Shown one piece after another: positions 133 to 33,352 of a stretch of 44,138 nucleotides of DNA (positions within the stretch are counted from its first letter, which is position 1; the number at the start of each line of letters is the position of its first letter). The notes beneath the pieces were generated by a model that was not told the origin of the DNA, searched no databases, and saw only the letters and a program-made list of their open reading frames with translations. The translations under genes were made by a program, and so were the position numbers. Origin of the DNA: a virus; the IMG/VR virus record IMGVR_UViG_3300022751_000021, positions 1-44,138 of that record; one strand, given 5' to 3'.

Positions 133-1773
133 CAGCGCGGCGAAGTCGTCTATCTTTTCGGTGGCCCGCTTCTTGTCGGGCGCGTTGTTCAGGTTTGCGT
201 CCTGGCGAGAAACCATGTTCGAGGCGTTCCAGTTCAGCACCGGGTCATTGCCGTGCGCGAACTTTCCATTCAGGTAAGCCACCTCGAGCGCCTGCATGGC
301 GGGGTGATAGCTGCGAGGCCCCTGGATAAACTGCTGCATCTTCACGCCGGCGCTGTTCAGGCGCTGCACCGACTGCGATGCGTTCCATCCGTCGTAGCCG
401 ACTGCCAACAGATTGAAGGTCTCCTGCACCTCGATGATCTTGTCTTCGATCGGCTTGTAATCGATGGCCTCGACGCCCGACTCGATCAGCAGGCCCTTGA
501 GCACCCAGCCGGCGTAAGGGATCAGGCCGCGCTGCGTTCGCCTGCGAACCGCCATTGCGGGGACCCAGCGCCAGCCGTGCGTGTAGAAGAAGCCGTCGAT
601 GTCCCACACCAAACGGAACGATGTCAGGTCGGTGGTGCTGGACAGGTCGAGGCCCCCGGTGCACGGGTACTTGCGCAGCCACTCCAGATCGATCGCGCCC
701 TTGCACTCTCGCCACTTGGTCAGATTGACCCAGCCCTTTGCCACCGAAGAAGGCCTGTTCAGGCGCTTGATCTTGAACTCGGCGTGTTGACCTGGCTTGT
801 CCTTCGCCTCAATGGCTGCCTTGCGAATCTCGTCGAGCAGCAGCGGGTTGACGTCCATCAGCGGGTTGGCCTTCCGCCACGCGCTCTCGTCGAAGTCGTC
901 GTCTGCCTCGGTGCCTAAGTCTTCATCCTTCTCGTCGACCGCGTAGTACACCGCCAGGTAGTGGTCGGCCTCGATCAGGCCGCGCAGCACCTTCTTGGCG
1001 AACTCTCGTTCTTCTTCCCATGGGCCGGGATTGGCGTAGCCTTCGGTCGTCAGGTACAGGAACAGAGGGTTCCGCCGAGCGCCTGCCGCCGACTTGAGCA
1101 CGTTCACCAGGTCGTGGTTCTTGTGGGCATGGATCTCGTCGAGGATCGTGCAACTCGGATTCAATCCGTCTTGCGTGCTTGCCTTGGCATTGATCGGCTT
1201 GTAGGTGCCGCCGTTGTTGAAGCTGGCGATTGCGTTGGCGAAAGCCTCGAGTCCGAACGCCGAACGCAGGTCTTCGGTTTTCTCGACCATGGTCTTTGCG
1301 ACCTTGAAGACGATCCGCGCTTGCTGCCCTGTGGTGGCGCCCGTGATGACCTGAGGCCCGTTCTCCCCTTCGCAGTTCTGGCAGTACAGGCCGATGATTG
1401 CGGCGAGGGTGCTTTTGGCGTTCTTGCGGGCGATTGCGAAAAGCGCCGTCGTGAACCGCCGCGTGCCATCATGCTTCCTGAAACCGAACAGGTTCACCAG
1501 GAAGAACACGTGCGATTCGTGCAGGACGATGGTCGGGGTGTCCCAGGTCCCCTCTACGTGCGGCAGGTCTTCGGCAAACAGGCAGATGTCCGACGCATGC
1601 CACTCGTCAAAGACGAAGGGCGCATTCTTAGCGCTCGCCCGCTTGAGGTCGTCCAGGAACCGCTGCGCAGCCAGGCGCATCCAGATCCCGAAGCTCTTGT
1701 GGTTCTTCGGGTTGGCTGCCCGCTTGGCGTAGTCCTTGGCTACGGCAACGAAATCACGCGGCGCGCTTGCCAC
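64..1773 (-). CDS. terL: Terminase large subunit (TerL)
   Basis: This is the DNA-packaging motor: an ATPase that pumps DNA into the procapsid, with a C-terminal nuclease that cuts concatemers. The 569 aa length is typical of the HK97/Terminase_1 group. A variant Walker A (ARKNAKST) is at about 115-122, Walker B with the catalytic acid (TILDE) at 209-213 and a coupling motif (LTTEG) at 241-245. Nuclease-domain acidic residues lie in GGLDLSST (about 373-380), GYDGWNA (459-465) and a KIDDF segment near the C terminus. The start overlaps the end of TerS by 20 bases. Downstream, across the circular junction, is the prohead protease, the standard HK97-like order. Function is confident from motifs and context. 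Confidence 0.96.
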   Translation of the reverse strand: MASAPRDFVAVAKDYAKRAANPKNHKSFGIWMRLAAQRFLDDLKRASAKNAPFVFDEWHASDICLFAEDLPHVEGTWDTPTIVLHESHVFFLVNLFGFRKHDGTRRFTTALFAIARKNAKSTLAAIIGLYCQNCEGENGPQVITGATTGQQARIVFKVAKTMVEKTEDLRSAFGLEAFANAIASFNNGGTYKPINAKASTQDGLNPSCTILDEIHAHKNHDLVNVLKSAAGARRNPLFLYLTTEGYANPGPWEEEREFAKKVLRGLIEADHYLAVYYAVDEKDEDLGTEADDDFDESAWRKANPLMDVNPLLLDEIRKAAIEAKDKPGQHAEFKIKRLNRPSSVAKGWVNLTKWRECKGAIDLEWLRKYPCTGGLDLSSTTDLTSFRLVWDIDGFFYTHGWRWVPAMAVRRRTQRGLIPYAGWVLKGLLIESGVEAIDYKPIEDKIIEVQETFNLLAVGYDGWNASQSVQRLNSAGVKMQQFIQGPRSYHPAMQALEVAYLNGKFAHGNDPVLNWNASNMVSRQDANLNNAPDKKRATEKIDDFAALLMGVGAGQVERPPAPKHQLIII

Positions 1774-2167
1774 GGTTCGCGAATTTGTTCCCGGCCGGCT
1801 CTTCCCCTACCGGCTTCACCTTGCCTTGCGCAACAGGTGTCAGGCCGAAGTCGTTGATCAGGTTCCGGTACTGGGCAACCATCGATGCGACCGGCGCCTC
1901 CCCTGCTGACCACAGCTGCACCAGCTTGCCATGCAGAGCGCACAGCATGCCCAAGGCGCTCAGACCCGCCTCCGTCAGCAGCTTGTTCGCCACCAGAATG
2001 GGGGCCAAACGGTCCCACTCCTTGATGGCGTGCGCGTTCGGCAGCCAGTCAGGTGCTTTCGGCGTTTCGGCCACCATCGGTAGGTCGACCGCAACAGTGG
2101 TGTCTCGGCTCGGCTGGATGGTCCCGGAAACCACTTTCAGCGCTCGCGGTTTCTTGGGGTTGGGCAT
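1754..2167 (-). CDS. terS: Terminase small subunit, P27 family
   Basis: This is the DNA-recognition subunit of the packaging enzyme. It binds the cos or pac site and hands DNA to TerL. It is 137 aa and begins with the signature of P27-type small terminases (KP-A-KVVSGT-QPSRD near the N terminus), followed by a mostly helical body and a conserved W/Y-N-LINDFGLTP segment near 110-125. A GAGG ribosome binding site lies 5 bases upstream of the ATG. It overlaps TerL by 20 bases, so the two are probably translationally coupled. Family assignment rests on the N-terminal motif, length and position. Confidence 0.92.
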   Translation of the reverse strand: MPNPKKPRALKVVSGTIQPSRDTTVAVDLPMVAETPKAPDWLPNAHAIKEWDRLAPILVANKLLTEAGLSALGMLCALHGKLVQLWSAGEAPVASMVAQYRNLINDFGLTPVAQGKVKPVGEEPAGNKFANRGKRAA

Positions 2168-2319
2168 GGGGACCTCGGTCTGTCAAAAACTGGGATTTGT
2201 GAACTGCACGTGTGAAAGAAAGGCTGGATGCGCGGTTTCCATCGGGACCAATCCCCGAGAAAAATCGCCCCCCCCTACCCTCATTTTCAAAAATGCACCA
2301 GATCGGTGCGCCTCAGGGG
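2168..2319. other. Terminase-HNH intergenic region, candidate cos region
   Basis: No gene is visible in these 152 bases. They contain an eight-C run at 2268-2275, a short A-rich stretch before it, and the pair GATCGG/CAGATCGG further right. In HNH-carrying HK97-like phages the cohesive-end site usually lies next to the small terminase and HNH genes, so this is the best cos candidate in the genome. The cut position cannot be read from sequence alone. Confidence 0.35.
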
Positions 2320-2625
2320 TCAGATCGGAAAACCGTCATCGCCGATGGCAACCTGGAGCTTCTGCCCCATGTCGTCGGCTGTCTTGCGGTCGTGGCACCC
2401 GACTCTTCCCTTCACGGTGACGCAGAGCACCTGGCAGTTGGCGTCGGTGTCTGGGCCGGCTTTGAACAGGGGAACCTTGTGGTCCAGCTGGAAGCCGTCG
2501 GGGAAGGTGGTGAGGGTTCCACACGATGCGCAGCATCCTTTGGCCTGTGCCCAGAGCCTAAGCCTGCGCTCTTGTAGCTTCCTGCCTCTGATGCGTCCGT
2601 CTTGGTTGTCGTAGCGTGCGGTCAT
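2320..2625 (-). CDS. HNH endonuclease next to terminase
   Basis: A 101 aa protein with an HNH zinc-nuclease fold. A CASCG pair at about 30-34, the central LDHK (H of HNH) at about 48-51, then N (DANCQVLC) and the closing CH-RKTADD motif follow in order. HNH proteins of this size beside TerS assist the terminase holoenzyme in specific cos cleavage in HK97-like phages. The ATG at 2625 was chosen because homology-like sequence begins at MTARYDNQ; a longer frame extends upstream but overlaps the preceding gene. No strong ribosome binding site is visible. Confidence 0.88.
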   Translation of the reverse strand: MTARYDNQDGRIRGRKLQERRLRLWAQAKGCCASCGTLTTFPDGFQLDHKVPLFKAGPDTDANCQVLCVTVKGRVGCHDRKTADDMGQKLQVAIGDDGFPI

Positions 2626-3060: not shown

Positions 3061-3146
3061 TGGCGGAAGATGAAGGAATCGAACCATGCGCCATCCCTGG
3101 CGCCCACGGTTTTCAAGACCGCTTCGTGCCCTGCACGGCATCTTCC
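3061..3146 (-). tRNA. tRNA-Ser (anticodon TGA)
   Basis: An 86-base type II tRNA with encoded CCA. The acceptor stem GGAAGAT pairs with ATCTTCC. The anticodon stem-loop GCGGT-CTTGAAA-ACCGT carries TGA, reading UCA. A long variable arm GGCGCCA/TGGCGC is typical of serine tRNAs, and the T loop is TTCGATT. The D loop is short and the T stem shows two apparent mismatches, so it is somewhat degenerate. UCA is a rare codon in GC-rich genomes, a plausible reason for a phage to carry it. Confidence 0.85.
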
Positions 3147-3151
3147 TGAAC

Positions 3152-3241
3152 TGGCGGATGGTCGAGGGTTCGAACCTCGGCGGCCATTGCTGACCGGCTA
3201 CGGCTTAGCGGGCCGACACCTTACCTCTCGGTCAACCATCC
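3152..3241 (-). tRNA. tRNA-Ser (anticodon GCT) with C at position 33
   Basis: A 90-base type II tRNA with encoded CCA, five bases upstream of the other serine tRNA. Acceptor GGATGGT/ACCATCC and T arm CGAGG-TTCGAAC-CCTCG are perfect, and the variable arm CGGTC/GGCCG is well paired. The anticodon loop reads CCGCTAA, giving GCT (codons AGC/AGU) but C instead of the near-universal U at position 33. Its 5' end overlaps the stop of the upstream HNH gene by 10 bases. Confidence 0.85.
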
Positions 3242-3600: not shown

Positions 3601-4113
3601 ACATCGTAATTTAAACCGCCGTTGCCACTCCGGCAACCATCCGAATGAGAAAGCCGCTGAGCATTGCTGCTGGGTGGCTGAGTGTTGGTGGTGGCCGGTG
3701 CTGAACCCGGCATTCTGGCTATTTGCCGACGTACTTTCAGTCGGTCCCAAGTTTCCGATTTACCAGCGACCGGCCATTACGGCTGCGCATCAGCACTGCG
3801 CACTCACCATCACAGAATCAACCTCCAGTTCCCTGCGCGGCGGCCGACCGGGCGAGGGAAGCGGTTCTGCAACGTTGCCAGCATCCCGATTTCTCGTGCT
3901 GGGCGTGACCGCCTCTTACTGGGACCTTGCGGGTGAGAGGCATTGGTCTACGCGCTGCCATTCCCTGGAGGTGGTCTCTGTCATGGCCCTCGTTCCAGAG
4001 TCGGCTTTCCCCGAACTACTCGGCCCCGGATCGGGCCGGGGCAGTGGATGAGGCGTTGGCCTTTGCGCTTCAATGGCGCCAGCGTCTCTTCGGGGTCGCG
4101 CTGTGGTGGGCGC
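3601..4113 (-). other. Untranslated late leader region
   Basis: About 510 bases between the late promoter and the HNH gene with no convincing coding sequence on either strand; the open frames on the plus strand lack family signatures. On the minus strand a GC hairpin lies at 4023-4042 (GCCCCGG/CCGGGGC, six-base loop), about 65-85 bases after the likely transcription start. It has no U tract, so if it is the tR'-like terminator it is unusual. A leader of this kind, with a pause and an early terminator, is where lambda-type Q proteins act. Confidence 0.5.
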
Positions 4114-4168: not shown

Positions 4169-4894
4169 TCACGCTGTCGACTTCGCCTGATGGCGCCACT
4201 TCGTCTCCTTGAGGTGGCGCTTGGCGTCGCTCATGCAGTGCCCCATGTACCCCAGCACCTTCCTGCCGAGGAAGCCGTGAGGGATCTTGGCTTCACCCGT
4301 GCCGCGGCAGGTCGAGCAATCCCGGCTTGAGGTCCGGCCGGTGCCCTCCACCACGCGCTTCTGCACGCCCTTGCACGACGTGCACTTCGGCGACAGCCAC
4401 CAGGTCAGCACGGCAGCCACCACGTGGGGCGCGGCCTCGATGCCTTCGGCCAGTGCCCAGCGATCCAGGGCACCGCGGACCATGGGAAGCGACTTCAGTC
4501 GCTGCAACAGGGCACGCTGCTCGGTCTCGAACCACGCCTCTGCCTGCCGCTGCGCGGCCGCCAGCGGCGTGACCTGCTCGGTCTTCAGGTCGTCCTGGCC
4601 AGCGTCGATGGTCGGCACGGTGACCAGGCCGTTGGGCTCGCGCGCGTAGGTGCCGGCCAGCGCGCGCAGCTGGTCGAGCGTCGGCGCCGCGGGCTTGGCG
4701 CTGCTGTCCCACTCCGTGCGCAGGCGCAGCAGGGCCAGGCCTAACCGGTGCGGGCTCAGGCCGGCGGCGATGATCACCTGCACGGCGCCGTTTCGGTCCC
4801 ACTCGTGGCGCAGGTTGGATGAACCGACCGCAGTGGAGTAGCTCTCTTCGATGGTCGGGGGGGCGTTCTGGTCTTCGTCGTTCGTCATGAGCAT
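4169..4894 (-). CDS. Q-like late antitermination protein
   Basis: A 241 aa protein whose C-terminal third carries two zinc-knuckle pairs, CTSCKG and CSTCRGTGE, spaced by about 18 residues, followed by a G-K-GYMGHCMSDAKRHL helix. Lambda Q has the same C-x2-C-x-G / C-x2-C-x-G-x-G organisation followed by a similar helix. It is the last gene of the leftward early operon and directly precedes a promoter and untranslated leader, exactly where Q genes lie. Q proteins load on RNA polymerase paused near the late promoter and let it read through terminators. AAGGAGG lies 4 bases before the ATG at 4894; a second ATG at 4888 is possible. Function is inferred from motif plus position. Confidence 0.75.
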   Translation of the reverse strand: MLMTNDEDQNAPPTIEESYSTAVGSSNLRHEWDRNGAVQVIIAAGLSPHRLGLALLRLRTEWDSSAKPAAPTLDQLRALAGTYAREPNGLVTVPTIDAGQDDLKTEQVTPLAAAQRQAEAWFETEQRALLQRLKSLPMVRGALDRWALAEGIEAAPHVVAAVLTWWLSPKCTSCKGVQKRVVEGTGRTSSRDCSTCRGTGEAKIPHGFLGRKVLGYMGHCMSDAKRHLKETKWRHQAKSTA

Positions 4895-7056: not shown

Positions 7057-7548
7057 TCAGCGAGTCATCGCGGCGTGCTGTGCGCGCTCCGCGGGCGATG
7101 GGGTCCACTGCACGTTGTTGTCGGCGCCGTAGGCCAGCAGCCATTCAATGAATCCGCTGGCGAGACGTGTGTTGAAGTTGCGCGACTGCTCGCCGACCAT
7201 CACGAAGCCGGGGTGGTTCAAGGCGGGCACGAGCTCGATGTCGCCGAAGCGAGCCCAATCGTTGCGAAACTGCGGGTCGTCCTTCGTCTCGTGCTTGAAG
7301 GCGTCGACCAGCACGCGCTTCCAGGAGATCGGCGGCAGTTCCTTGCCGAACAGGCGGCACTGCCTCGAGATGTCGTTCAGCATCGCGTGGTACTTCTCTT
7401 CCTGCAGCCGGCTCTTGGTGTCCTTGCGGCGCTTCAGGGTGAGCTCGATGGAGTGGCCTGCGACCAAGTCGTCGCGCACGTCGCTGGCGTACCAGGAGCG
7501 GACGACGGCCTTGTACTGGTCGGGGGTGGTGATGGTCATCGTCTTCAT
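7057..7548 (-). CDS. ninB: NinB-like recombination protein
   Basis: A 163 aa protein of the NinB (lambda Orf) family, a recombination mediator that binds single-stranded DNA and helps replace RecFOR. The diagnostic block is RRKDTKSRLQEEKYHAMLNDISRQ (about 39-62, quoted here only as a region), with the K-S-Q---KYHAML core, then W-RVLVDAFKHE and the C-terminal FIEWLLAYGAD. Start ATG at 7548 overlaps the stop of the preceding gene (ATGA). Belongs to the recombination block with the RuvC-like resolvase. Confidence 0.9.
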   Translation of the reverse strand: MKTMTITTPDQYKAVVRSWYASDVRDDLVAGHSIELTLKRRKDTKSRLQEEKYHAMLNDISRQCRLFGKELPPISWKRVLVDAFKHETKDDPQFRNDWARFGDIELVPALNHPGFVMVGEQSRNFNTRLASGFIEWLLAYGADNNVQWTPSPAERAQHAAMTR

Positions 7549-8748: not shown

Positions 8749-9438
8749 TCAGCGCGCGTCCGTGTCGCTGTCCGGCAGATCGTCGCCGTCGCCGCCATCA
8801 GCAGTCGAAGAGAAGATGTCTTCGACGGTTGGTACCTTCTCCTTGTCGCCAGCGCCGGGGCCGAACACATCTTCAACGCTCAGAGGCTTCTCTTCCTCGA
8901 TCTGCTCAATGACGGGCGGGATGAGCGTGATCGTGATCAGGTCCTTTTCAAGGCCGACGATGTTGCCCAGCGTGTCGCGGTCCAGGCGGTCGCCGGTGTA
9001 CTGCGCTGTCCAGCCGAGCGTCACGGTTCCGCCCTCCTTCAGCACAGCGGCCAGGTTCTTCACTTTGCAGCAGTCGAACTCCATGTTGCTCAGGTCGTCG
9101 CCCAGGCCGTAGCTGATGCGCAGCGTGTAGCCGGCGAACAGGTCCTTCTTGCGCATCAGGCCGAACTTGCCGTCATTCAGCTTCGGGAAGCGGAGGTTCG
9201 GACGGATGGACTCGACGCCTTCGATGTGCTCCTGGCCTTCCTCGCCGGCGGCGTTGAAGAACATCGCTTCCAGGAAGCCTGGCTGAATCTCGGACAGCTT
9301 GGTATTCGGCACGTCGACCGACATGCACAGGTCAACCGCCTGCACATGCTGGTCGCCGTGGTTTTCCTTGCGTGGGTTGACCTTGGTCAGCAAGACGTCG
9401 GTAGGGGTGCGGAATGCGAACTCGGGCTTTGCGGTCAT
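8749..9438 (-). CDS. Conserved phage protein with acidic C-terminal tail
   Basis: A 229 aa protein with a globular, beta-rich first 170 residues (for example FRTPTDVLLTKVNPR, DVPNTKLSEIQPGF, LFAGYTLRISYG) and a low-complexity acidic tail ending GGDGDDLPDSDTDAR. Acidic tails of this kind are seen in single-stranded DNA-binding proteins, and the gene lies directly after the helicase. A DNA-binding or helicase-partner role is therefore possible, but the tail lacks the terminal hydrophobic tip of bacterial SSB. ATG at 9438. Confidence 0.75.
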   Translation of the reverse strand: MTAKPEFAFRTPTDVLLTKVNPRKENHGDQHVQAVDLCMSVDVPNTKLSEIQPGFLEAMFFNAAGEEGQEHIEGVESIRPNLRFPKLNDGKFGLMRKKDLFAGYTLRISYGLGDDLSNMEFDCCKVKNLAAVLKEGGTVTLGWTAQYTGDRLDRDTLGNIVGLEKDLITITLIPPVIEQIEEEKPLSVEDVFGPGAGDKEKVPTVEDIFSSTADGGDGDDLPDSDTDAR

Positions 9439-9461
9439 GTGGATCTCTAGTGGTTGAGGGG

Positions 9462-10436
9462 TCAGGATTCGTGGCCCATCCAGGGCGTTTCGTCTTCTTC
9501 GGGGGCGTTGATGAATTCCATGGGCGGCTCGGAAGCGCCGGGGAGAAACTGCTGGCTCTGAGGGTGGTACCAGAGCTTGATTTCGCCTTGCCAGCCCTCG
9601 CCGTTGCGCTGCTTGGCGACGTACAGCGTGGTGTCAGGGACGCTCTGGTCGCGAAGACCCTTGCGTTCCTTTTCCTCGTTGCGATGCACCAGGATCACGT
9701 TGTCCGGCTGGTCGGTGATCGAGCCCGATCCCTTCACGGCGCGCTTCGTCGGCTTGCCGTCGGACTTGTTCATGTGGTGCACGAGGTGGATGTGAATGTC
9801 CTCGTCGCGGGCAATCGCGGTGAGCTCGTCGACGAACTCCTTCTGGCCGTTGTAGTCGTCCTCGTCCTTGATGCACTTCGCCAAGTTGTCGATGACCATG
9901 TGGCCGATCCGCAGCTCCTGTGCGGCGTAGCGCGTGACAGCGCAGACCTGGCGCCACTGCACGGTGCCCTGCTGGTCGTACAGCCACAGCTTGCCGTCCG
10001 TCCAATTGGCGAAGTCGTCGTATCGCTCGAGCGTTGCGCGGCGCTCGGCGGGGTCGGACATGATTTGCTTGTCCTGCAGGCTGAAATGCGTCCACTGACG
10101 GCCCATGCGCTCGAGCGTCTTGGTGGGCTTCATTTCGAAGCTGGCGATGGCCACGCGCACGTCCTGTGCGCACAGCGACAGCGTCACCTGACCGGTGATC
10201 AGGCTCTTGCCGCTGCCGTTCTCGCCAGCCCAAACCGTCACCTCACCCGGGCGGAATTGGAGCGCTCCCCTGGTCTTGCCCCAGGGCATGTACTGGTGCC
10301 GGGATGCCTGCGGGTTGTTCACGCGGGCGATGAGGTCTCGCACGTAGATCGACGCAGGTTTGACACGCTGGCGGGCCTCCGTGGCCTGCATGTACTGCCG
10401 AAAATCGATGTCGGTATCGGCGAATGTTTCAGCCAT
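9462..10436 (-). CDS. DnaB-type replicative helicase, single RecA domain
   Basis: A 324 aa RecA-fold helicase of the DnaB/Twinkle group that would unwind DNA at the fork. Walker A is GENGSGKS at 71-78; an SFEMKP segment follows; Walker B is MVIDNLAKC; the HLVHHMNK motif is H3; VKGSGSITDQPDNVI is the arginine-finger and sensor region. It lacks the N-terminal domain of DnaB and any primase domain, so it probably uses host primase. The start at 10436 has AAGGAG 7 bases upstream. It overlaps the next upstream gene by 8 bases and partners the O-like initiator. Confidence 0.92.
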   Translation of the reverse strand: MAETFADTDIDFRQYMQATEARQRVKPASIYVRDLIARVNNPQASRHQYMPWGKTRGALQFRPGEVTVWAGENGSGKSLITGQVTLSLCAQDVRVAIASFEMKPTKTLERMGRQWTHFSLQDKQIMSDPAERRATLERYDDFANWTDGKLWLYDQQGTVQWRQVCAVTRYAAQELRIGHMVIDNLAKCIKDEDDYNGQKEFVDELTAIARDEDIHIHLVHHMNKSDGKPTKRAVKGSGSITDQPDNVILVHRNEEKERKGLRDQSVPDTTLYVAKQRNGEGWQGEIKLWYHPQSQQFLPGASEPPMEFINAPEEDETPWMGHES

Positions 10437-11857: not shown

Positions 11858-12210
11858 CGGCCACCCCGGCGCAGTGCATCGCGGCGATCGGTTGAAGCCT
11901 GACCAGCTTCACGGCCTTCAATCTGGAGGCTCGTGCTCGTGGGCTTCACCAGGCCATTGGTGGTGTACAGCTTGGGCTGGCGGCCGTGCTTGATGCCCAC
12001 GGCGTTGGCCACGGTGACGAAAGGTGGACGGGCGGCAGCAGTCGGGTGCTTCCGGGCCTTGGTGGGCTTGCCAGACAGCTTGGCGAGGGCTTCGCGCTGC
12101 AGGCGGGCTTCCATGCTGCGGTCGCCAGGCTTTGGAACCATGGATGCGCCGATGACGCTGGGCGTGCCCCGCCAGAAGAAGGCGCTTGTAGGGGCTGCGG
12201 GCTTGTTCAT
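11854..12210 (-). CDS. Basic protein of unknown function
   Basis: A 118 aa strongly basic protein, rich in Lys, Arg, Pro and Thr, with KPTKARKHPTAAARPPFVTV in the middle and repeated RR near the end. Predicted largely disordered. Start overlaps the stop of the CII-like gene (ATGA). Possibly nucleic-acid binding by charge only; no family recognised. Confidence 0.65.
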   Translation of the reverse strand: MNKPAAPTSAFFWRGTPSVIGASMVPKPGDRSMEARLQREALAKLSGKPTKARKHPTAAARPPFVTVANAVGIKHGRQPKLYTTNGLVKPTSTSLQIEGREAGQASTDRRDALRRGGR

Positions 12211-12692
12211 CCGACTGCCCTCAGCGCCATGGGCTTGCCAGCCTCGTGCTTGGCATGGATCGACTGCTCTAGCTTCTGCAGAGACTCGCGTGCTTCGGCG
12301 ATCTCCTTGTCGAGCGCGGCCTTGTCGTTGTCTGAGATCACGCCATCTGCATCCGCGGCGATGGTTGCAGTCGCAACGTCCGACATTTCCTTGATGACGT
12401 CGGACATGCCGCGCTGCAGGTTGACCGGCGCATTCATTTCCAGCACAGGCAGACGGACGAAGCCGCCGCCGCTGGCTGCGATGGCGTTGACGAAGTCATG
12501 GCAGTGCTCAGACTTCGCCTCGATGCAAAGGTCGGACACCATGACCGAATCCAACAGCCCCAGCTTGAACTTCGCGTCGCCGCTCATTTCCTTGCGGAAC
12601 GTCTCTGGGTTCTTTCCGATGCGCAGAGAGATCACTTCAAGACCACCGGGGTAGTGCTTGACCATCAGGCGGATGGCGTCAGAGGGGTTCAT
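12207..12692 (-). CDS. CII-type phage regulatory protein (CP76/YmfL-like)
   Basis: A 161 aa protein whose N-terminal half (DAIRLMVKHYPGG, LRIGKNPETFRKEMSG, KLGLLDSVMV) matches the pattern of Phage_CP76/YmfL regulators, DNA-binding proteins placed where CII lies in lambdoid and P2-like phages. The C-terminal half is coiled-coil-like (SDNDKAALDKEIAEARESLQ). Start at 12692 follows AAGGA by about 12 bases. It would decide lysis versus lysogeny by activating or repressing early promoters; the exact target cannot be read here. Confidence 0.75.
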   Translation of the reverse strand: MNPSDAIRLMVKHYPGGLEVISLRIGKNPETFRKEMSGDAKFKLGLLDSVMVSDLCIEAKSEHCHDFVNAIAASGGGFVRLPVLEMNAPVNLQRGMSDVIKEMSDVATATIAADADGVISDNDKAALDKEIAEARESLQKLEQSIHAKHEAGKPMALRAVG

Positions 12693-13072: not shown

Positions 13073-13288
13073 CTAGACGCTCGCCTTGGCTTTCATGGCG
13101 GAAGCACGCGGGAACAGGTGCTTGTGCAGCGTCATCACCTTCGAGTAACCCGGATCGTTCTCCCGGTTTTTGATCCGAAGCACCGTGTCGTAGGTCATTC
13201 CCACTTCTTTGGCGAGCTTGGGCAGTTCGCCCTTGCGTCGCTCAAGCTCGGCGGACACTTCGGCTAGGGGATCGATATGTTTGGGCAT
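13073..13288 (-). CDS. Cro-like HTH regulator, leaderless transcript likely
   Basis: A 71 aa protein with a helix-turn-helix: ELPKLAKEVGMTYDTVLRIKNR at about 21-42 (as a region) contains the turn EVGM and recognition helix TYDTVLRI. It is the first gene of the leftward early operon and lies across the operators from the repressor, the position of Cro. The ATG begins 6 bases after the -10 hexamer, so transcription should start on or next to it; there is no room for a ribosome binding site. Expected to turn down the repressor and early promoters. Confidence 0.8.
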   Translation of the reverse strand: MPKHIDPLAEVSAELERRKGELPKLAKEVGMTYDTVLRIKNRENDPGYSKVMTLHKHLFPRASAMKAKASV

Positions 13289-13294
13289 TCCGCT

Positions 13295-13323
13295 ATCCTA
13301 GGCATAAATGCCTCGTCTAGCAA
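13295..13323 (-). promoter_or_regulatory. Leftward early promoter
   Basis: Minus strand: -35 TTGCTA (13318-13323), 17-base spacer, -10 TAGGAT (13295-13300). The first operator fills the spacer and the second ends at the -35, so a bound repressor would block polymerase. Drives the Cro-like gene and the whole leftward operon to Q. A weak rightward promoter for the repressor may overlap it (TTGGGC at 13281, CATAAA at 13303). Confidence 0.75.
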
Positions 13324-13336
13324 GACATATTTGCCT
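13300..13336. promoter_or_regulatory. Left operator pair
   Basis: Two 14-base sites: AGGCATAAATGCCT (13300-13313, half sites perfectly inverted) and AGACATATTTGCCT (13323-13336), centres 23 bp apart, just over two helical turns. Identical half sites occur at the right operator pair 1.5 kb away in mirror order. Most likely bound by the repressor at 13361 and by the Cro-like protein. Confidence 0.8.
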
Positions 13337-13360: not shown

Positions 13361-13747
13361 GTGAGCACAAACCCTGCACCAAGCCCTGCTGCTGCCGTTT
13401 TGGCGGCCAATCTGAAGGCGCTGATGGAGAATCACGCCACGCTCGACTCGCAAGCCAAACTCGGAGCGCGAGCCAAGATCAACCAGAAAACGGTCAGCCG
13501 ATACTTAGCAGGCACGCACGAAGCCACGATCGGAAACGTCCACATGCTGGCCAAGGCGTTCGAGCTCGAGACATGGCAACTGCTAACTCCAAACCTTGAC
13601 CCAAAGAAACCGCCGACACTCGCGTTTCAGACCGAGGCCGAATTGCGTGAGTTCTACAAGAACTTAGGCAAGACCAAAGAGGCCATTGACGGTGTCCTTC
13701 GCCGCGACGGCGGCACGGCCATTCCCAGCATCAAGGAAAAATCGTGA
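13361..13747 (+). CDS. Prophage repressor (CI-like, no peptidase domain)
   Basis: A 128 aa XRE-type DNA-binding protein: LAANLKALMENHATLDS, then QAKLGARAKINQKTVSRYLAGTHEATIGNVHMLAKAFEL is a classical five-helix HTH (about 12-65). The C-terminal part (AELREFYKNLGKTKEAIDGVL) is helical and probably dimerises. There is no LexA-like Ser-Lys peptidase, so RecA-mediated self-cleavage is not expected and induction must use another route, perhaps the second regulator. GTG at 13361 chosen because the HTH starts just after it; upstream codons cover the operators. Coupled to the lipoprotein gene. Confidence 0.82.
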   Translation: MSTNPAPSPAAAVLAANLKALMENHATLDSQAKLGARAKINQKTVSRYLAGTHEATIGNVHMLAKAFELETWQLLTPNLDPKKPPTLAFQTEAELREFYKNLGKTKEAIDGVLRRDGGTAIPSIKEKS

Positions 13748-14322
13748 TGAAGTCTCTTGCGGTTATGGTGATTGCCGCAGCTGCAACAGGCTGCGCATAC
13801 AAAGCGGATGTGCTGTCCACCAGCGCCGCTTACGAAGTGTCCGGCGCCCAAGGCTCGCGCGGACCAGCTGAGGTGGTCATTGGAGAATCGTTACAAGCCG
13901 TCGGTAAAGAAATGGCGCCTACGTTCGCTTGTGTGGGCTACAAGTACCCGTTGGCTTATGGTCAGGCAATCCGAGATTCGATCCTTCAGACCGTCGGTGG
14001 GGCTTACTCCCCGGTTGAGTCATCGCCTCGGCAACCCAGCGCGCCAGCGCCCTACCCCGTGTTCAGGTTCGATCTGGCAGAGTTCGACCCTACCATCACC
14101 TTCACGCCAGGCCTCATCACAACTGGCACTGCGACGGTCGAGATCGCATTGCGAGTCACTGTCTTCCATTCTGGAGCCGCGCTCAGGTCCTTCACCGCTC
14201 GCGGCACCGGCCAAGCAGTCGGCGATGGCAACTGCACGATAGGGGCCGGCCTACTGGCTTCCGCAGGACAAAAGTCTCTCAGACTGGCCCTGGAGAGTTT
14301 CGTGAAGCAGGGGATCAACTAG
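13747..14322 (+). CDS. Lipoprotein co-transcribed with the repressor
   Basis: A 191 aa protein with a short lipoprotein signal: MKSLAVMVIAAAATGC, lipobox AATGC with the lipidated cysteine at about 16 (Ala at +2, favouring outer-membrane sorting). The mature part is beta-rich, with FACVGYKYPLAYGQAIRDSI and a late NCTIGAGLLASAGQKSLRLALESF segment. The gene starts on the repressor stop (TGATG; a GTG at 13744 is also possible; AAGGA lies just upstream), so it should be made in the lysogen. That predicts a lysogenic-conversion or superinfection-exclusion role, an inference from position. Its stop shares CTAG with the stop of the opposing regulator. Confidence 0.8.
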   Translation: MKSLAVMVIAAAATGCAYKADVLSTSAAYEVSGAQGSRGPAEVVIGESLQAVGKEMAPTFACVGYKYPLAYGQAIRDSILQTVGGAYSPVESSPRQPSAPAPYPVFRFDLAEFDPTITFTPGLITTGTATVEIALRVTVFHSGAALRSFTARGTGQAVGDGNCTIGAGLLASAGQKSLRLALESFVKQGIN

Positions 14323-14639
14323 AGGCTTTGCTTCGCTTTGTCTGGGCGTTGACCTGCGTCACGCGGAGTGAACAAGATCCTGCATTCGGGTCGCCCGTGC
14401 TCGGGGCACCTTGCGTACCTCTCTACTCCGAATAGCAAATAGTCCGTGCTTACGCCGTAGAGCGTGGCCATGTTGACCAGCACCGCGACCTGAGCATCGA
14501 CCTCCGCTCGCTCAACGCGGGACACCACCGATCGGCTCACCCCCAGCACGATCGCGGCATCCCTTTGGGTCATCCCGCACGACATGCGCGCGGCCTCCAT
14601 TCGAGGGCCGATGTTCTTGAACATGTGGATATCGCGCAT
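14319..14639 (-). CDS. Second XRE-family regulator
   Basis: A 106 aa protein with a clear HTH: GPRMEAARMSCGMTQRDAAIVLGVSRSVVSRVERAE spans about 11-46, with the turn LGVS and recognition helix RSVVSRVE, followed by LVNMATLYGVSTDYLLFG as in many XRE repressors. The C terminus has C-PEHGRPEC, a possible metal site. ATG at 14639 follows GAGGA by about 6 bases. It is transcribed towards the repressor and ends tail-to-tail with the lipoprotein. It may be an antirepressor or a second switch acting on the inverted repeats just upstream. Confidence 0.82.
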   Translation of the reverse strand: MRDIHMFKNIGPRMEAARMSCGMTQRDAAIVLGVSRSVVSRVERAEVDAQVAVLVNMATLYGVSTDYLLFGVERYARCPEHGRPECRILFTPRDAGQRPDKAKQSL

Positions 14640-14716
14640 GCTGTCCTCGCTTTGTAGATGCATCGAAGTGTGAGCCTCTGTAGCAAGACGTGTCCTGCTG
14701 ACAACCCTACGTGAGG

Positions 14717-14798
14717 TTTCCAGTTTGGAATAAGTTTCCGAAGTGGAAATGTCCCGTATTCGGGACACGGGCCGAAATCTTGTCCCGTATTTGGGAAT
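14717..14798. promoter_or_regulatory. Cluster of four inverted repeats, candidate operators
   Basis: TTTCCAGTTTGGAA (14717-14730), TTTCCGAAGTGGAAA (14735-14749), TGTCCCGTATTCGGGACA (14750-14767, perfect) and TGTCCCGTATTTGGGAAT (14781-14798). All share TCC / GGA half sites and lie upstream of the second XRE gene, distinct in sequence from the AGGCAT operators. A weak minus-strand promoter (TTGTCA, 16 bases, TACAGA, about 14684-14711) lies between them and the gene. Likely autoregulatory sites for the second regulator. Confidence 0.6.
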
Positions 14799-14841: not shown

Positions 14842-14878
14842 AGGCATATTTGTCTTGCCAACGCAGGCATATATGCCT
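14842..14878. promoter_or_regulatory. Right operator pair
   Basis: AGGCATATTTGTCT (14842-14855) and the perfect palindrome AGGCATATATGCCT (14865-14878), centres 23 bp apart. Read on the minus strand, the order and sequences match the left pair: perfect site first, AGACA-type site second. The perfect site fills the spacer of the rightward promoter. Confidence 0.82.
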
Positions 14879-14883
14879 ACGAT
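14855..14883 (+). promoter_or_regulatory. Rightward early promoter
   Basis: -35 TTGCCA (14855-14860), 17-base spacer, -10 TACGAT (14878-14883). It is almost the same sequence as the leftward early promoter, including the flanking TCTTGC and GATAGC. Drives the rightward operon that ends with integrase. Confidence 0.77.
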
Positions 14884-22136: not shown

Positions 22137-22579
22137 GCGACCAAGCACTGATCGACGCGATCGACCACTACGCCGATACCCGGCACCGCAGCGGCGTGCA
22201 CCTCTACAACGCCGAGACGGATGCCGCGCGGCGCGCTGTGGTGGCGCAGCTTGAAGCGCTCGCCAAGCCTGCTGAGCCAGCACCCAAGGCGGATGCCGAC
22301 GTGCCCACCGGCAATGTCTGGAACAACATCTCCGAGGCGCTGCCTACCCTCAAGGCGGCCAGCCGCGGCGAATGGACTTGGGCAGCCAACACCCGGTGCA
22401 AGTACGTGCAGCTTCGCATCGACATGCGGGACGGCGGCTGCTTGATCCAGGACCGCCACGGCGTACGTATCACGCCGGCCACGCTCGCTCGCCAGGTGTT
22501 CGGCGCCCCCGGCCTGTCTTGGCCACAGTTCGCCGCGCTGCTGAGCCCCAGTCGTCAACCAGGAGATGGCAAGTCATGA
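22133..22579 (+). CDS. Hypothetical protein upstream of excisionase
   Basis: A 148 aa protein. First 50 residues helical (DQALIDAIDHYADTRHRSGV), then a beta-rich part (EWTWAANTRCKYVQLRIDMR, GGCLIQDRHGVRITPATLAR). Coupled by ATGA to the excisionase gene. No family recognised. Confidence 0.72.
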   Translation: MSDQALIDAIDHYADTRHRSGVHLYNAETDAARRAVVAQLEALAKPAEPAPKADADVPTGNVWNNISEALPTLKAASRGEWTWAANTRCKYVQLRIDMRDGGCLIQDRHGVRITPATLARQVFGAPGLSWPQFAALLSPSRQPGDGKS

Positions 22580-22797
22580 GCGCGAACGAATCTCTCTACC
22601 GCTGGGTGCTGCTCAAGAAGCACTGTGCCGACACCGGCGACACTCCCGACGCCGTGCACTCACGGCGCAAGCGCCACGAATGGCTCGACGGCGTCCAATG
22701 CCGGCTCGGCCCGAACGGCAAGCTCTACATCAACCCCGAGGAGTACAACAGATGGGTGGAAAGCCAATCGCAGCCCTCACAGCCCCTCGCGGCGTGA
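22576..22797 (+). CDS. xis: Excisionase (Xis-like)
   Basis: A 73 aa winged-helix protein: LYRWVLLKKHCADTGDTPDA, HSRRKRHEWLDGVQCRLGPN, KLYINPEEYNRWVES. The pattern W-LLKK---T-TPDAVHSRRKRHEWLDG---GPNGKLYI is that of small phage excisionases that bend attachment-site DNA and direct integrase to excision. It directly precedes and overlaps the integrase gene, as usual. Expression from the rightward early promoter fits induction. Confidence 0.85.
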   Translation: MSANESLYRWVLLKKHCADTGDTPDAVHSRRKRHEWLDGVQCRLGPNGKLYINPEEYNRWVESQSQPSQPLAA

Positions 22798-23942
22798 GCA
22801 TCCGGAAGTTTAAGACCGAGGAGCGCATCCAGATCGCCTTCAGCTTCCGAAACACCGAATGCCGCGAGCTGCTGCCGCCCTGCATGATCACGAAGAGCGC
22901 GCTGACGCACGCCGCGGGGCTGCGCGCCGAGATCCAGCGGAAGATCGCGGCCGGCGAGTTCCGGTACACCGAGTACTTCCCGGACAGCCAGCGCGCCGCG
23001 CAGTTCGACGAGATGCCCAAGCACATCCTGCTGGGCACACTGATCGACGCGCAGATGAAGACCTACGAGGCCCAGGTGTCGAATGGGACGTTGGCGCAGA
23101 GCACGTGCGATGGCTACCTGAAGGCGCTCAGCAGCGAACGCATGAAGGAGTGGCGCATCAAGCCGATCGCGTCCGTGACGCCCAGCATGCTGCGCAAGTG
23201 GATCGGCGAGCTCGGCGTGACTGCCAAGTTCGCGCGCAACCTCCTGACGCCGTTTCGCAGCGTGTTCGACGACGCCCTGAACGATGACCTGATCAAGTTC
23301 AACCCATTCGAGCGGATCGCGCTGACGAAGCTGCTCAAGCAGACGGCGATCGACAGCAACTACGTCGTCGACCCGTTCACGGCCGCCGAGCGCGCCCTGT
23401 TGATCGCGGCCGCCCGCCCGGACGAGTGGCCGACGGTGCAGTTCTGGTTCGAGACGGGCCTGCGCCCGGGCGAGCTGCAGGCGCTTCGCTGGTCGCGCGT
23501 CGACATGAAGGCCGAGAAGGTGCGCATCGACATCAACCAGGTCGCAAAGAAGGAGAAGGCCCCCAAGACCGAGGCCGGCGTTCGGGTGATGGAACTGAGC
23601 ACGGCCGCCCTGGAGGCGCTGGAAGCACAGAAGGCGATCAGCCTGTTGGCCAACGATCGCGTGTTCCTGAATCCGCGCACCGGCAAGGCATGGACGACAG
23701 ACGCCCAGCTGCGGAAAACCCTGTGGGTGCCGCTATTCTCTCGAGCGGATGTACGCTACCGCAACCCGTACCAGGTTCGTCACACCTTCGCAAGCGCGAA
23801 GCTCACGGCGCACGAGAACCCCTGGTGGCTGGCAGAACAGCTCGGCCACGTCGACGTGCAGATGGTCTTCCAGACCTACGGCAAGTTCATTCCCGAGGAC
23901 TACCAGAAGCCGAAGGCTGCGAAGTTGAAGTCGGTGGCGTGA
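22752..23942 (+). CDS. int: Tyrosine integrase
   Basis: A 396 aa tyrosine recombinase with an arm-binding domain at the N terminus (GVSIRKFKTEERIQIAF), a core-binding helical domain (about 90-190) and a C-terminal catalytic domain. Visible catalytic residues: Arg in FETGLRPGELQALRW, Lys in KTEAGVRVMEL, Arg/His in YQVRHTFAS, His in LGHVDVQ and the nucleophile Tyr in TYGKF. The first residue of HxxR is Tyr, as in several phage integrases of this type. ATG at 22752 has GAGGAG 8 bases upstream; a GTG at 22794 on the excisionase stop is the alternative. attP lies just downstream. Confidence 0.93.
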   Translation: MGGKPIAALTAPRGVSIRKFKTEERIQIAFSFRNTECRELLPPCMITKSALTHAAGLRAEIQRKIAAGEFRYTEYFPDSQRAAQFDEMPKHILLGTLIDAQMKTYEAQVSNGTLAQSTCDGYLKALSSERMKEWRIKPIASVTPSMLRKWIGELGVTAKFARNLLTPFRSVFDDALNDDLIKFNPFERIALTKLLKQTAIDSNYVVDPFTAAERALLIAAARPDEWPTVQFWFETGLRPGELQALRWSRVDMKAEKVRIDINQVAKKEKAPKTEAGVRVMELSTAALEALEAQKAISLLANDRVFLNPRTGKAWTTDAQLRKTLWVPLFSRADVRYRNPYQVRHTFASAKLTAHENPWWLAEQLGHVDVQMVFQTYGKFIPEDYQKPKAAKLKSVA

Positions 23943-29582: not shown

Positions 29583-32450
29583 TCAGTTGATGACCGATTC
29601 CTTCGGCGGGATGGGTTGCGTATCCCAGTAGTAGTAGCGGTCGCTGTAGTTCACGGCGCGGATCGTCACGTAGTTGTCCTTCGGCGGATCGATCTCGGTC
29701 ACAAGCCAGGCCTGCGCCGCGCGCGCGCTGTCGGCCGCGAACGAATAGATCGTGGCCACGCCGTCGACATCGGTGCTGGTCTTGACCGCTTCGGCCGGCA
29801 GGCTCGCCAGCAGGACCTGGTCGTCACGTCCTGCCACCGCGGTGACCGTGATGCCCTGCAGGCCACCGTTGCGTTGCAGCAGCACGATGCTGTGCGAGCC
29901 GCCGGCTTCGAAGCTGACGCGCTGGCTCAGCGTGAGCAGCAGGCCGTCCTGCCCGATCACCTCGCCGTCGTAGGCTTTGAACCGCGTGTTGTCCACGATG
30001 TCGATGCGCGTGTTCGGCAGCAGCAGGCGCGCGTCTGTGGTGCCGTTGGTCTCGATCGTCAGGCGCTGGCCGCGCAGCTTCTCGTACTCGCGGCAGGCGC
30101 GGATCCAGGCCTGCACATAGGACCGGATGCCGGGGATCTCGAACTTCTTGTACTTCGTCGCCGAGCCGTCCAGCGGCAGCCTGATGGTCTCGTTCTGCTG
30201 GGTGTCTGGGTCCGCATAGACGAACTCGACGCCGTCGTAGGCCGAGTCGTTGGCGAAGGTGCGCGTGATGACTTCGGCGATCACGCTCTGCGGCGCCTTG
30301 TTGCGGTGCGTGAAGAGCGCCGCGCTGTTGGTCTGCTGACGGTCCAGCGCGAGCCGCACCTTGCCGCTCTGCCGATACCCTTTGGAGAACGCCGCGTTAG
30401 CCACCATGTCGACGGTGTCCTCGAACGACAGGCTGTCGCTGTCCAGCGTGTAGTTGAAGGTCGGCAGATCGGGATGGATGGCGTACAGCTGGTCGACGAC
30501 GTTCTGCAGCTGCGGCATGTCGAGGTCGGTGATGGGCCGGTTGCCGATCTTCGGGTCAAGCGTCAGGGCCGCGATGATGTCTTGCGCGAGGGCGGTCTCG
30601 TAGAGGTCTCCCGACACGTGCCGGCCGTCGGCGTCGAAGGCACCCGTGAAGCCCGAACCGGTCCACTTCGGCAGCATCCTGCTGGCGATGCAATTCAGCT
30701 GCCGCGACTTCACCGCGGTGCTGCGCGCCGTGGCCTGCGTGACGGTGTGCACGGTGGTCTTGTTGCCGAAGTCGGCCTTGTTCACAGGGCTCACGCTGTA
30801 CAGGTCGGCCCACTTGATCTCGTCGACCACCTGACCCTGGAAGAAGTAGTCGTAGGGCGTCAGGCGGCGCATGCGCACGCGCGTGGGGCCCGTCCAGGCC
30901 GTGGCGTACTCCAGCGTCTCGGCGCGCTCTTCGGTCGTGACGCCGCTCAGGCTGCCGGTGGCCGTGACCACGCCGCCGATCGGGTTGAGTGAGCCGTCCA
31001 GCTGCTGCATCTCCATGGCGTAGGCCACCGAGGTTCCAGATCGGCCGCCGTCGTCCTTGTACATGCCGTTGAGAGCCAGGACGTTGGCCCAGATCTCGAT
31101 GCGGTCCAGCACCGACAGGGTCACCCAATCCGTCCAGTCCGTCAGCCCGTTGTTCGCCACCATGTTCGACTTCGTGCCGCCAGACAGCGGGTCATCATGC
31201 TGGTAGGGGAACGTCGCGCCAGCCAGGATCAGCCAGCCGTCGCCCACCTCCAGCACGGTGCGCGTGCCGCTGAAGGCCGAGCCCGGCAGCGCGACGGTGA
31301 CGGTGATGCCGGCCTGCGGGTCCGCCGTGACCTGGGAGCCGGTCGTCATCGTGACGGTGCGCTCGTCTTCCTTGGACAGCACGGTGAAGGTGCCGTTGTT
31401 CTCAGGATCGACGAATCCCGCGAAGGTCACAGTGCCGCCTGGAACGAGGCGCTCGAACAGAAGCGGTGCCGCGCCGACGCCTTGGTCAAAGTAGCGACGG
31501 AAAGCGCCATTCACCTCGACCGTGCCGCTGCGCACCTGGGTGGTGTCGGGCACGGTGAAGGTAACGGTCTGGCCAGCGGTGACGACGGCATTGAAGTTGG
31601 GCCGCTTGTAGAACTGCACGACGCGGTCGGTCGCGGCGGCCGGCACCGGCAGCGTGGGCCGAATGCTCCCAGGAGGCGCAGGCATGCCGCCTGCCGGGCC
31701 TGGCGGCAGGAAGTAGTAGCCCGAGTCCGGCTCGAGCTGGATCTGGTTCTGCGCCTTGAGCGTGATGCCATCCACCTCCACCGCGCGGCGCACCGACACG
31801 ATGCGGTCAATGATTGCAGGGCCGATCTGGATGTAGGGCGTACCGCTGTTGGGCGAGGTGAACGGCCGATAGAAGGCGGCGCTCGACCCGGTGATCGCGC
31901 TGATGAGCGTGTCGCCATCCTTCACGTCCGTGATCGCGTAGTACCCGCGGCCGACGCAGTAGTAGCCGTACTCCACCTTGATGTTGTCGATGTACTTCGT
32001 GTACGTCGGCATCATCAGGCTGGGGATGGACTTGACCTTGCCGAAGATGTCTTCGACGCGCTGCAGCAAGCGCACCTGGTTCTCGCGGCTGCCGAGGGCG
32101 TTGTTCGGGCTCTGCTGCGTGCGGTTCACGTTGGCCGGCATGTCCGGCTTGCTGGCCATGAAGGCGCTCGCAACCGAATAGACCGTCAGGATGACTTGGA
32201 ACCAGGTGAACGGGTCAGTGCCCGGGCTCTCAAGCACGGTGTACACCGGCGCGTCACTCGCCATCAGCGCGTCGAAGTCGCGGCTGATCTCGGTCCCGGC
32301 GCTAGGTTGGCCGCGGAAGACCTGCAGCACGGTGCGCTGGCCGCGCTCGAACCGGTCGACCAGCCACTTGCCGACGTGTGGCACCTCGATGACCTGGGGC
32401 GGCTCCGTCGAGATCCCGAAGCGGTGACGGTGAATGCGAAGTTGCGTCAT
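29583..32450 (-). CDS. J-like tail tip / host specificity protein
   Basis: A 955 aa protein. N-terminal segment TQLRIHRHRFG-STEPPQVIEVP, then a TipJ-type fold with YGYYCVGRGYYAITDVKDGDTLIS and a SPNSGTPYIQIG hinge, a middle with beta-sandwich modules and a phage-tail-hub part (RSGKVRLALDRQQ, FVYADPDTQQNE) and a C-terminal DPPKDNYVTIRAVNY domain. It follows the NlpC/P60 gene as in lambda order K, I, J. It forms the tail tip and triggers DNA release. Start at 32450 overlaps the previous stop (ATGA). Confidence 0.85.
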   Translation of the reverse strand: MTQLRIHRHRFGISTEPPQVIEVPHVGKWLVDRFERGQRTVLQVFRGQPSAGTEISRDFDALMASDAPVYTVLESPGTDPFTWFQVILTVYSVASAFMASKPDMPANVNRTQQSPNNALGSRENQVRLLQRVEDIFGKVKSIPSLMMPTYTKYIDNIKVEYGYYCVGRGYYAITDVKDGDTLISAITGSSAAFYRPFTSPNSGTPYIQIGPAIIDRIVSVRRAVEVDGITLKAQNQIQLEPDSGYYFLPPGPAGGMPAPPGSIRPTLPVPAAATDRVVQFYKRPNFNAVVTAGQTVTFTVPDTTQVRSGTVEVNGAFRRYFDQGVGAAPLLFERLVPGGTVTFAGFVDPENNGTFTVLSKEDERTVTMTTGSQVTADPQAGITVTVALPGSAFSGTRTVLEVGDGWLILAGATFPYQHDDPLSGGTKSNMVANNGLTDWTDWVTLSVLDRIEIWANVLALNGMYKDDGGRSGTSVAYAMEMQQLDGSLNPIGGVVTATGSLSGVTTEERAETLEYATAWTGPTRVRMRRLTPYDYFFQGQVVDEIKWADLYSVSPVNKADFGNKTTVHTVTQATARSTAVKSRQLNCIASRMLPKWTGSGFTGAFDADGRHVSGDLYETALAQDIIAALTLDPKIGNRPITDLDMPQLQNVVDQLYAIHPDLPTFNYTLDSDSLSFEDTVDMVANAAFSKGYRQSGKVRLALDRQQTNSAALFTHRNKAPQSVIAEVITRTFANDSAYDGVEFVYADPDTQQNETIRLPLDGSATKYKKFEIPGIRSYVQAWIRACREYEKLRGQRLTIETNGTTDARLLLPNTRIDIVDNTRFKAYDGEVIGQDGLLLTLSQRVSFEAGGSHSIVLLQRNGGLQGITVTAVAGRDDQVLLASLPAEAVKTSTDVDGVATIYSFAADSARAAQAWLVTEIDPPKDNYVTIRAVNYSDRYYYWDTQPIPPKESVIN

Positions 32451-32818
32451 GCGGGAAGACCCCAGTACTCGACCACCTGATAGGCGTCTTGCAGGCTGGC
32501 AAGGTCTTGGTAGACGTTGCCGGTGTCCAGCGCGTGCAGCACGCTGCCCTGGTAGTAGATGCCACAGTGGTGGACCGACAAGCCGGCGATCTTCGACATC
32601 AGCACGATGCACATCTCGGCGGGTGCCGCCAGCTGCGCGACGCCGTCGGGATTCTTGTGCAGCGCCAGGCGGAACTCGGTGGCGATCGCGCGCACGCTGC
32701 TGTTGATGGCGCGAAAGCCGGTCACCGACTTGTCGAGCTCGTGCGCGTACACGTCGGCGACAAGAAGCCAGCAGCCGCGCGGGCCGTACTGCTTGGCGAG
32801 ATAGTCGTTCACGTTCAT
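32447..32818 (-). CDS. NlpC/P60-type tail tip peptidase
   Basis: A 123 aa protein of the NlpC/P60 type. The catalytic Cys is in RGCWLLVADVY (C16) and the catalytic His in SVHHCGIYYQG (H84 most likely), followed by VLHALDTG. It probably cleaves peptidoglycan cross-links at the tail tip, as lambda K. It lies between the DUF1833 gene and the J-like gene. Confidence 0.87.
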   Translation of the reverse strand: MNVNDYLAKQYGPRGCWLLVADVYAHELDKSVTGFRAINSSVRAIATEFRLALHKNPDGVAQLAAPAEMCIVLMSKIAGLSVHHCGIYYQGSVLHALDTGNVYQDLASLQDAYQVVEYWGLPA

Positions 32819-32842
32819 GGAAGGTCCAGAGAAAAGGCCGCG

Positions 32843-33352
32843 CTACAAGAACGCGCGCATCATGGGGATGACGCGCGGCTCGTAGAGCTCGCCCGTACGG
32901 GAGACGTTGTACCGAGGCGCATTGGCCTGGATGGCACAGGCGCCGATCTGGCACGAGATGGATAGCGCCTCCAGCGTCACGCCGGCCAGCGGTGTTTCGA
33001 GGTCGTCCGAGAGGTACTCTCGGTACTGCACCTGCATGAATTCCTGCGTGTCGAGCGGGATGCGGTCCAGCTCTTCCCGGAACAGGTCGTCGATGTCGGT
33101 GGTGTCGATCGCGATCTTGTAGGCCTGGTCAAGGTTCGCAGGCGTGCCGGCGAGCTCCACGCTGATGTTTACCGGCAGCACGTCCATCAACACGCCGTTC
33201 TCGAAGCGCACCTGCCCGGCCTGGCTCTCGCGCCAGACGTTCCAGACCTTCGACATGGCCGAGTGGGAGAACGTCACGACGCCGATGCCGTAGATGTTCT
33301 GAGGCGCGCACAGCAGGTACTGGCGCAGCCGGTAGGCGAGGTCTTCAGCCAT
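32843..33352 (-). CDS. DUF1833-family tail tip protein
   Basis: A 169 aa protein with a beta-rich fold; VTFSHSAMSKVWNVWRES near the start and the RTGELYEPRVIPMM end are characteristic of DUF1833, a distal-tail family found between the tape measure and NlpC genes. It probably occupies the lambda L position. Confidence 0.82.
   Translation of the reverse strand: MAEDLAYRLRQYLLCAPQNIYGIGVVTFSHSAMSKVWNVWRESQAGQVRFENGVLMDVLPVNISVELAGTPANLDQAYKIAIDTTDIDDLFREELDRIPLDTQEFMQVQYREYLSDDLETPLAGVTLEALSISCQIGACAIQANAPRYNVSRTGELYEPRVIPMMRAFL

Follow-up and report, generated by a model that had tools for sequence, protein, structure and literature searches.

The new finding is that, in a 44,138-base virus record (the window, i.e., the whole stretch of DNA that was analysed), a repressor gene and the lipoprotein gene directly behind it are flanked on each side by a cluster of the same operator motif. 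We propose that the product is a lysogen-expressed outer-membrane lipoprotein, and consider its most likely function to be superinfection exclusion, exerted at the periplasmic face of the outer membrane (probability roughly 0.45). The window belongs to a lambda-like siphophage, with terminase, portal, HK97-type capsid and lambda-type tail tube genes; the portal has its nearest annotated counterpart, at 47% identity, in Pseudomonas phages, and a DNA-level query with half of the genome matched no annotated phage. At 3061-3241, on the minus strand, there is a pair of neighbouring tRNA-Ser genes, one with anticodon TGA and the other with GCT. The features relevant to the analysis are as follows:

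12207-12692, minus strand: CII-like activator (Phage_CP76; Pfam PF06892, E 4.7e-12; PHROG CII-like, E 8.3e-19)
13073-13288, minus strand: 71-aa Cro-like repressor, encoded divergently from the CI-type repressor (PHROG transcriptional repressor, E 1.3e-5)
13323 to 13295, minus strand: sigma-70-like promoter pR, TTGCTA-17-TAGGAT, directed toward cro
13300-13313 and 13323-13336, no strand: OR-like operator pair, overlapping the leftward pR
13361-13747, plus strand: CI-type repressor, HTH, 128 aa (Pfam HTH_3, E 9.5e-5, just under the cut-off; PHROG transcriptional repressor, E 1.2e-6)
13733-13737, plus strand: Shine-Dalgarno-like AAGGA of the lipoprotein gene, inside the repressor gene, 9 nt before the ATG
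13747-14322, plus strand: lipoprotein gene, 191 aa (open reading frame, family alignment, AlphaFold2 model)
14319-14642, minus strand: second XRE-type HTH regulator, convergent with the lipoprotein gene and overlapping its stop codon (Pfam HTH_31, E 7.2e-12; start picked by an RBS-like GAGGA before the ATG)
14750-14796, no strand: repeat TGTCCCGTATTCGGGACA / TGTCCCGTATTTGGGA upstream of the second regulator, candidate operators of that regulator
14842-14855 and 14865-14878, no strand: OL-like operator pair, overlapping the rightward pL
14855-14883, plus strand: sigma-70-like promoter pL, TTGCCA-17-TACGAT, directed toward early genes on the right
22566-23942: integrase
29583-32954: gpJ-like gene

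The interval 13361-14322 is made up of two genes, the repressor and the lipoprotein, both on the plus strand. The original observation that the lipoprotein begins on the repressor stop codon was borne out: the TGA occupies 13745-13747 and the ATG 13747-13749, the two having one base in common. There is no room for a terminator between the genes, and the lipoprotein gene, overlapping the repressor as it does, has no promoter-like site of its own; the window copy is thus not a classical moron with its own promoter and terminator. This anatomy supports co-expression of the lipoprotein with the repressor. Since full-length relatives are 37-39% identical, with E-values down to 1e-41, we conclude from sequence comparison that the gene is real.

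The predicted signal peptide comprises residues 1-15, with lipidation at Cys16 (13792-13794). The lipobox, A-T-G-C, had been described as clean; it fits a relaxed PROSITE-type rule, and, having Ala at position -3, departs from the strict rule [LVI][ASTVI][GAS]C. We nevertheless regard it as secure, because Cys16 is invariant in an eight-member family alignment and several relatives have strict lipoboxes. No other open reading frame in the window has a signal-peptide-like lipobox. The residue at position +2 predicts membrane sorting of lipoproteins (the Lol +2 rule), and because it is Ala here (and never Asp among the relatives), the protein is predicted to be sorted to the outer membrane. Two further cysteines, Cys62 (13930-13932) and Cys163 (14233-14235), are, like Cys16, intact in all members of the alignment, which suggests that they probably form one disulfide.

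The palindromic motif AGGCATAWWTGCCT occurs in two clusters, 13300-13336 and 14842-14878, that flank the repressor and lipoprotein genes. When the motif AGGCATANNTGCCT was searched for with up to two mismatches, the palindromic site being scored on both strands, nine matches were obtained versus 2.1 expected; eight of the nine fell inside the two clusters, and nine or more matches were observed in none of 100 shuffles. The clusters are the arms of a 65-nt inverted repeat (74%). Because each overlaps a promoter and the promoters are in mirror orientation, the clusters look like lambda OR and OL, and we infer that they are operators bound by the window repressor. In lambda, rexAB lies behind cI, between OL and OR, and is transcribed with cI; RexA binds DNA, and RexB is located in the inner membrane. 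Judged by its sequence elements, to which Cro-like and CII-like genes on the left belong, the window switch follows the lambda plan (OR, OL, pR, pL), with the lipoprotein gene in the place of rexAB: it lies between OL-like and OR-like operators, directly behind the repressor and on the same strand. No relatives of the repressor or of the second HTH regulator were found in IMG/VR.

Members of the lipoprotein family were found in 7 of 399 sampled Burkholderiaceae genomes and in two IMG/VR phages; they include Burkholderia loci L002 and L003, Burkholderiaceae loci L014-L016 and the more distant L017 and L018, and there is a 25% identical relative on an Agrobacterium plasmid. Searches for relatives at the order and class levels added only weak or partial matches, and an Actinomadura match (L004) was discarded as spurious, being antisense to a large NRPS gene. 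The Burkholderia chromosomal and Agrobacterium plasmid relatives have no adjoining phage switch. L017 and L018 are chromosomal members located near lexA, in two Burkholderiaceae genomes, at an apparently conserved locus. The stretch common to L002 and L003 is only 816 bp long (92% identity) and consists of the gene and 126 bp upstream of it; the surroundings differ, with the L003 copy adjoining an integrase, and dN/dS between the two is 0.028. We conclude from these comparisons that the lipoprotein gene is mobile as a cassette and subject to strong purifying selection. No MCE, Lpt or secretion partner was conserved beside any copy in the neighbourhoods read.

A phage relative is encoded by prophage L021 (IMGVR_UViG_2881545252_000002; Burkholderia-family); L021 and L016 (genome G214) are one and the same prophage. 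Its lipoprotein is 36-37% identical to the window protein, and the gene again follows the repressor in the same orientation, bracketed by three OR-like sites and two OL-like sites (motif CACCATTTGGTG; three sites at 7104-7155, two sites at 9851-9887). The L021 repressor (phrog_12107), Cro-like protein and operator motif all differ from those of the window; its CII belongs to PF06892 (E 2.6e-44). The repressor coupling originally claimed for the lipoprotein is strengthened by these observations, as OL-like and OR-like operators bracket the window gene and the relative is placed in the same way within an immunity region unrelated to that of the window; for the same reasons, expression in the lysogen appears likely. 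Since the L021 lipoprotein gene starts ca. 450 bp past the repressor, it may have its own promoter, and its co-transcription with the repressor is less certain than in the window. Two small genes convergent with the lipoprotein gene (8803-9560, minus strand) are also located inside the L021 OL-OR interval; at least one has a signal peptide, and both match PHROGs of unknown function. A weak match of 9165-9560 to Cor (E 0.054) was not used.

Three other phages, L054, L055 and L056, were found through CII, and each has an OL/OR pair (0 of 200 shuffles in each case). In L054, an unrelated 132-aa lipoprotein (3653-4051, plus strand; no family above the cut-off) is encoded between OL and the repressor, convergent with the latter. 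L055 has a secreted 105-aa protein (4292-4609, minus strand; no Pfam family) in the rex position, 20 bp behind a Peptidase_S24 repressor, and the L056 interval contains a two-TM 54-aa protein and a convergent XRE gene, the latter as in the window. To the left of the OL-like sites of L054, two adjacent similar genes (1245-2503, minus strand) form tandem paralogues with common C-terminal motifs, e.g., WYWSSTQ and KGYEAHV. More distant annotated CII-type phages are mixed, and not all have envelope genes after the repressor. Envelope cargo in the repressor-linked interval is therefore, as far as sequence comparison goes, a tendency in five phages and no general rule.

No Pfam, PHROG, NCBIfam or PADLOC model matched the lipoprotein, and the PDB sequence matches (E 0.26 and weaker) were not meaningful. 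AlphaFold2 models were obtained for the window protein (pLDDT 78.8, pTM 0.77) and for the L021 relative (pLDDT 77.3, pTM 0.75); both were built from one set of four sequences and so do not count as independent. In a Foldseek search of the PDB, the window model matched PqiC-family XCC0632 first (E 1.7e-5, TM 0.53/0.57), followed by E. coli PqiC, LptE (E 6.4e-4, TM 0.38-0.53) and CsgG (E about 1e-3). The L021 model ranked fold members other than PqiC first (Cj1090c, an Acinetobacter minor lipoprotein, CsgG, LptE). TM scores were moderate, from 0.36 to 0.57, and a search of viral structures (BFVD) returned nothing clearly below E 1e-3. That PqiC, LptE and PelC have a common fold is already known (PMC10897342). 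Thus, the structure prediction and search that had been proposed as a check gave a predicted PqiC-like and, more tentatively, LptE-like fold, that of envelope-transport lipoproteins, and the earlier statement that no known family could be recognised, while correct at the level of family models, has to be softened, as the fold can be named. By sequence, the protein is a member of neither family, because hhalign gave a probability of only 3.4% against DUF330 (12 Burkholderiales members) and 13.5% against LptE, the latter from signal-peptide columns only; Pfam PF03886 (PqiC/DUF330) and PF04390 (LptE) did not match, and there is no MCE or LptD gene beside the window gene. The predicted core fold is also related to that of CsgG-type lipoproteins, which occur in some uncultured phages as well; the window protein differs from them in having no Pfam match and no curli partners. 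Two other assignments were rejected: YajG (Lipoprotein_16), since PF03923 matched none of the eight members and YajG is absent from sampled Burkholderiales, and the Tle1 immunity lipoprotein, which had been matched to "DUF330" only via DUF3304, a beta-sandwich.

Exclusion lipoproteins known from coliphages are usually encoded beside gpJ (tail tip). The window protein resembles Llp of T5, Rtp45 of Rtp and mEp Lpp (PMC9586334, PMC12685063, PMC11893012) in being a phage-encoded lipoprotein, predicted to face the periplasm from the outer membrane, and, as in these proteins and Cor, there is a lipoprotein signal with an invariant Cys. Rtp45 blocks LptD and Llp blocks FhuA, both acting from the periplasm (PMC12685063, PMC9586334), and Rtp45 contains a disulfide, as predicted for the window protein. 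In contrast, Llp, Rtp45 and mEp Lpp are small and encoded among tail or structural genes, whereas the window protein is unrelated to them in sequence, is 191 aa long with an LptE/PqiC-like domain, and is encoded behind the repressor and not beside the gpJ-like gene (29583-32954). A place in the lysogeny module is shared with Ltp of Streptococcus thermophilus phage TP-J34, a lipoprotein that is transcribed in the prophage and excludes phages (PMC3952083); Ltp, however, is a Gram-positive cytoplasmic-membrane lipoprotein that blocks DNA injection, and has no sequence relation to the window protein. The position behind the repressor is also that of lambda rexA and rexB and of RexAB-type defence genes that follow a CI-like prophage repressor in Pseudomonas putida (PMC12894663); the window protein is unrelated to RexA and RexB in sequence and is an outer-membrane-type lipoprotein instead. 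Morons are commonly found between the repressor and n (PMC7067206).

Based on the precedents of Llp, Rtp45 and Ltp, and on the occurrence of morons and defence genes in the repressor-linked interval, we favor the following scheme. The lipoprotein gene would be accessory, of the moron type, in the place that rex has in lambda. The repressor would keep pL and pR silent in the lysogen, with its own transcript continuing into the lipoprotein gene, so that the prophage makes the lipoprotein steadily. The protein would be lipidated and Lol-sorted to the inner leaflet of the outer membrane, its LptE/PqiC-like domain, held by the Cys62-Cys163 disulfide, lying in the periplasm, where it may bind an outer-membrane receptor or envelope-transport protein and exclude phages that use it. 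Such action would be like that of Llp or Rtp45, though the proteins are unrelated. A more specific and rather doubtful version is that the lipoprotein, with its LptE/PqiC-like fold, mimics an outer-membrane transport lipoprotein and docks onto LptD or another transport complex, so that surface lipids are altered or a phage receptor is closed; it would then represent a structurally new class of immunity-region exclusion lipoprotein.

Exclusion need not be the original role of the family, because no phage switch adjoins the relatives on Burkholderia chromosomes, two of them near lexA, or on an Agrobacterium plasmid. A general lysogenic conversion, in which the protein aids the lysogen envelope (barrier function, lipid or LPS transport, adhesion, resistance to bacteriocins or type VI lipases) without any connection to phage exclusion, is a real if tentative possibility that would fit these chromosomal, island and plasmid relatives, the movement of the cassette with its own upstream DNA between two Burkholderia genomes, and the predicted resemblance in fold to PqiC and LptE; it is less easily reconciled with the lack of a conserved transport or secretion partner, and with the fact that both complete phage members keep the gene in an operator-bounded interval, where known cargo often serves exclusion or defence. 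The original idea of exclusion or conversion is thus leading by position and precedent, its two parts being close in likelihood in view of the relatives outside phages, the large LptE/PqiC-like domain and the remoteness of the tail-tip gene.

It is improbable that the gene is a passenger, captured behind the repressor and of little benefit to phage or host. Its rarity and its GC content (0.60 versus 0.63 for the phage) are what such a gene might show, yet selection between the mobile copies is strong, the cysteines are intact throughout, and the same position is occupied in two unrelated switches. Outer spanins of phages can be lipoproteins, and a lytic-phase envelope protein (outer spanin-like or virion-associated, for example), as opposed to a lysogenic product, was considered on that ground; the overlap with the repressor on the same strand, the remoteness from the lysis and tail genes and a folded domain of ca. 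175 aa, unlike spanins, make this highly improbable.

Superinfection exclusion by a lysogen-expressed lipoprotein thus remains our preferred reading. The lipoprotein would add a family with a nameable fold to the short list of prophage genes that are kept on, and the analysis shows that the repressor-linked interval of several unrelated switches serves for cell-envelope cargo. If the lipoprotein does exclude phages, it would represent a new structural class of exclusion lipoprotein.
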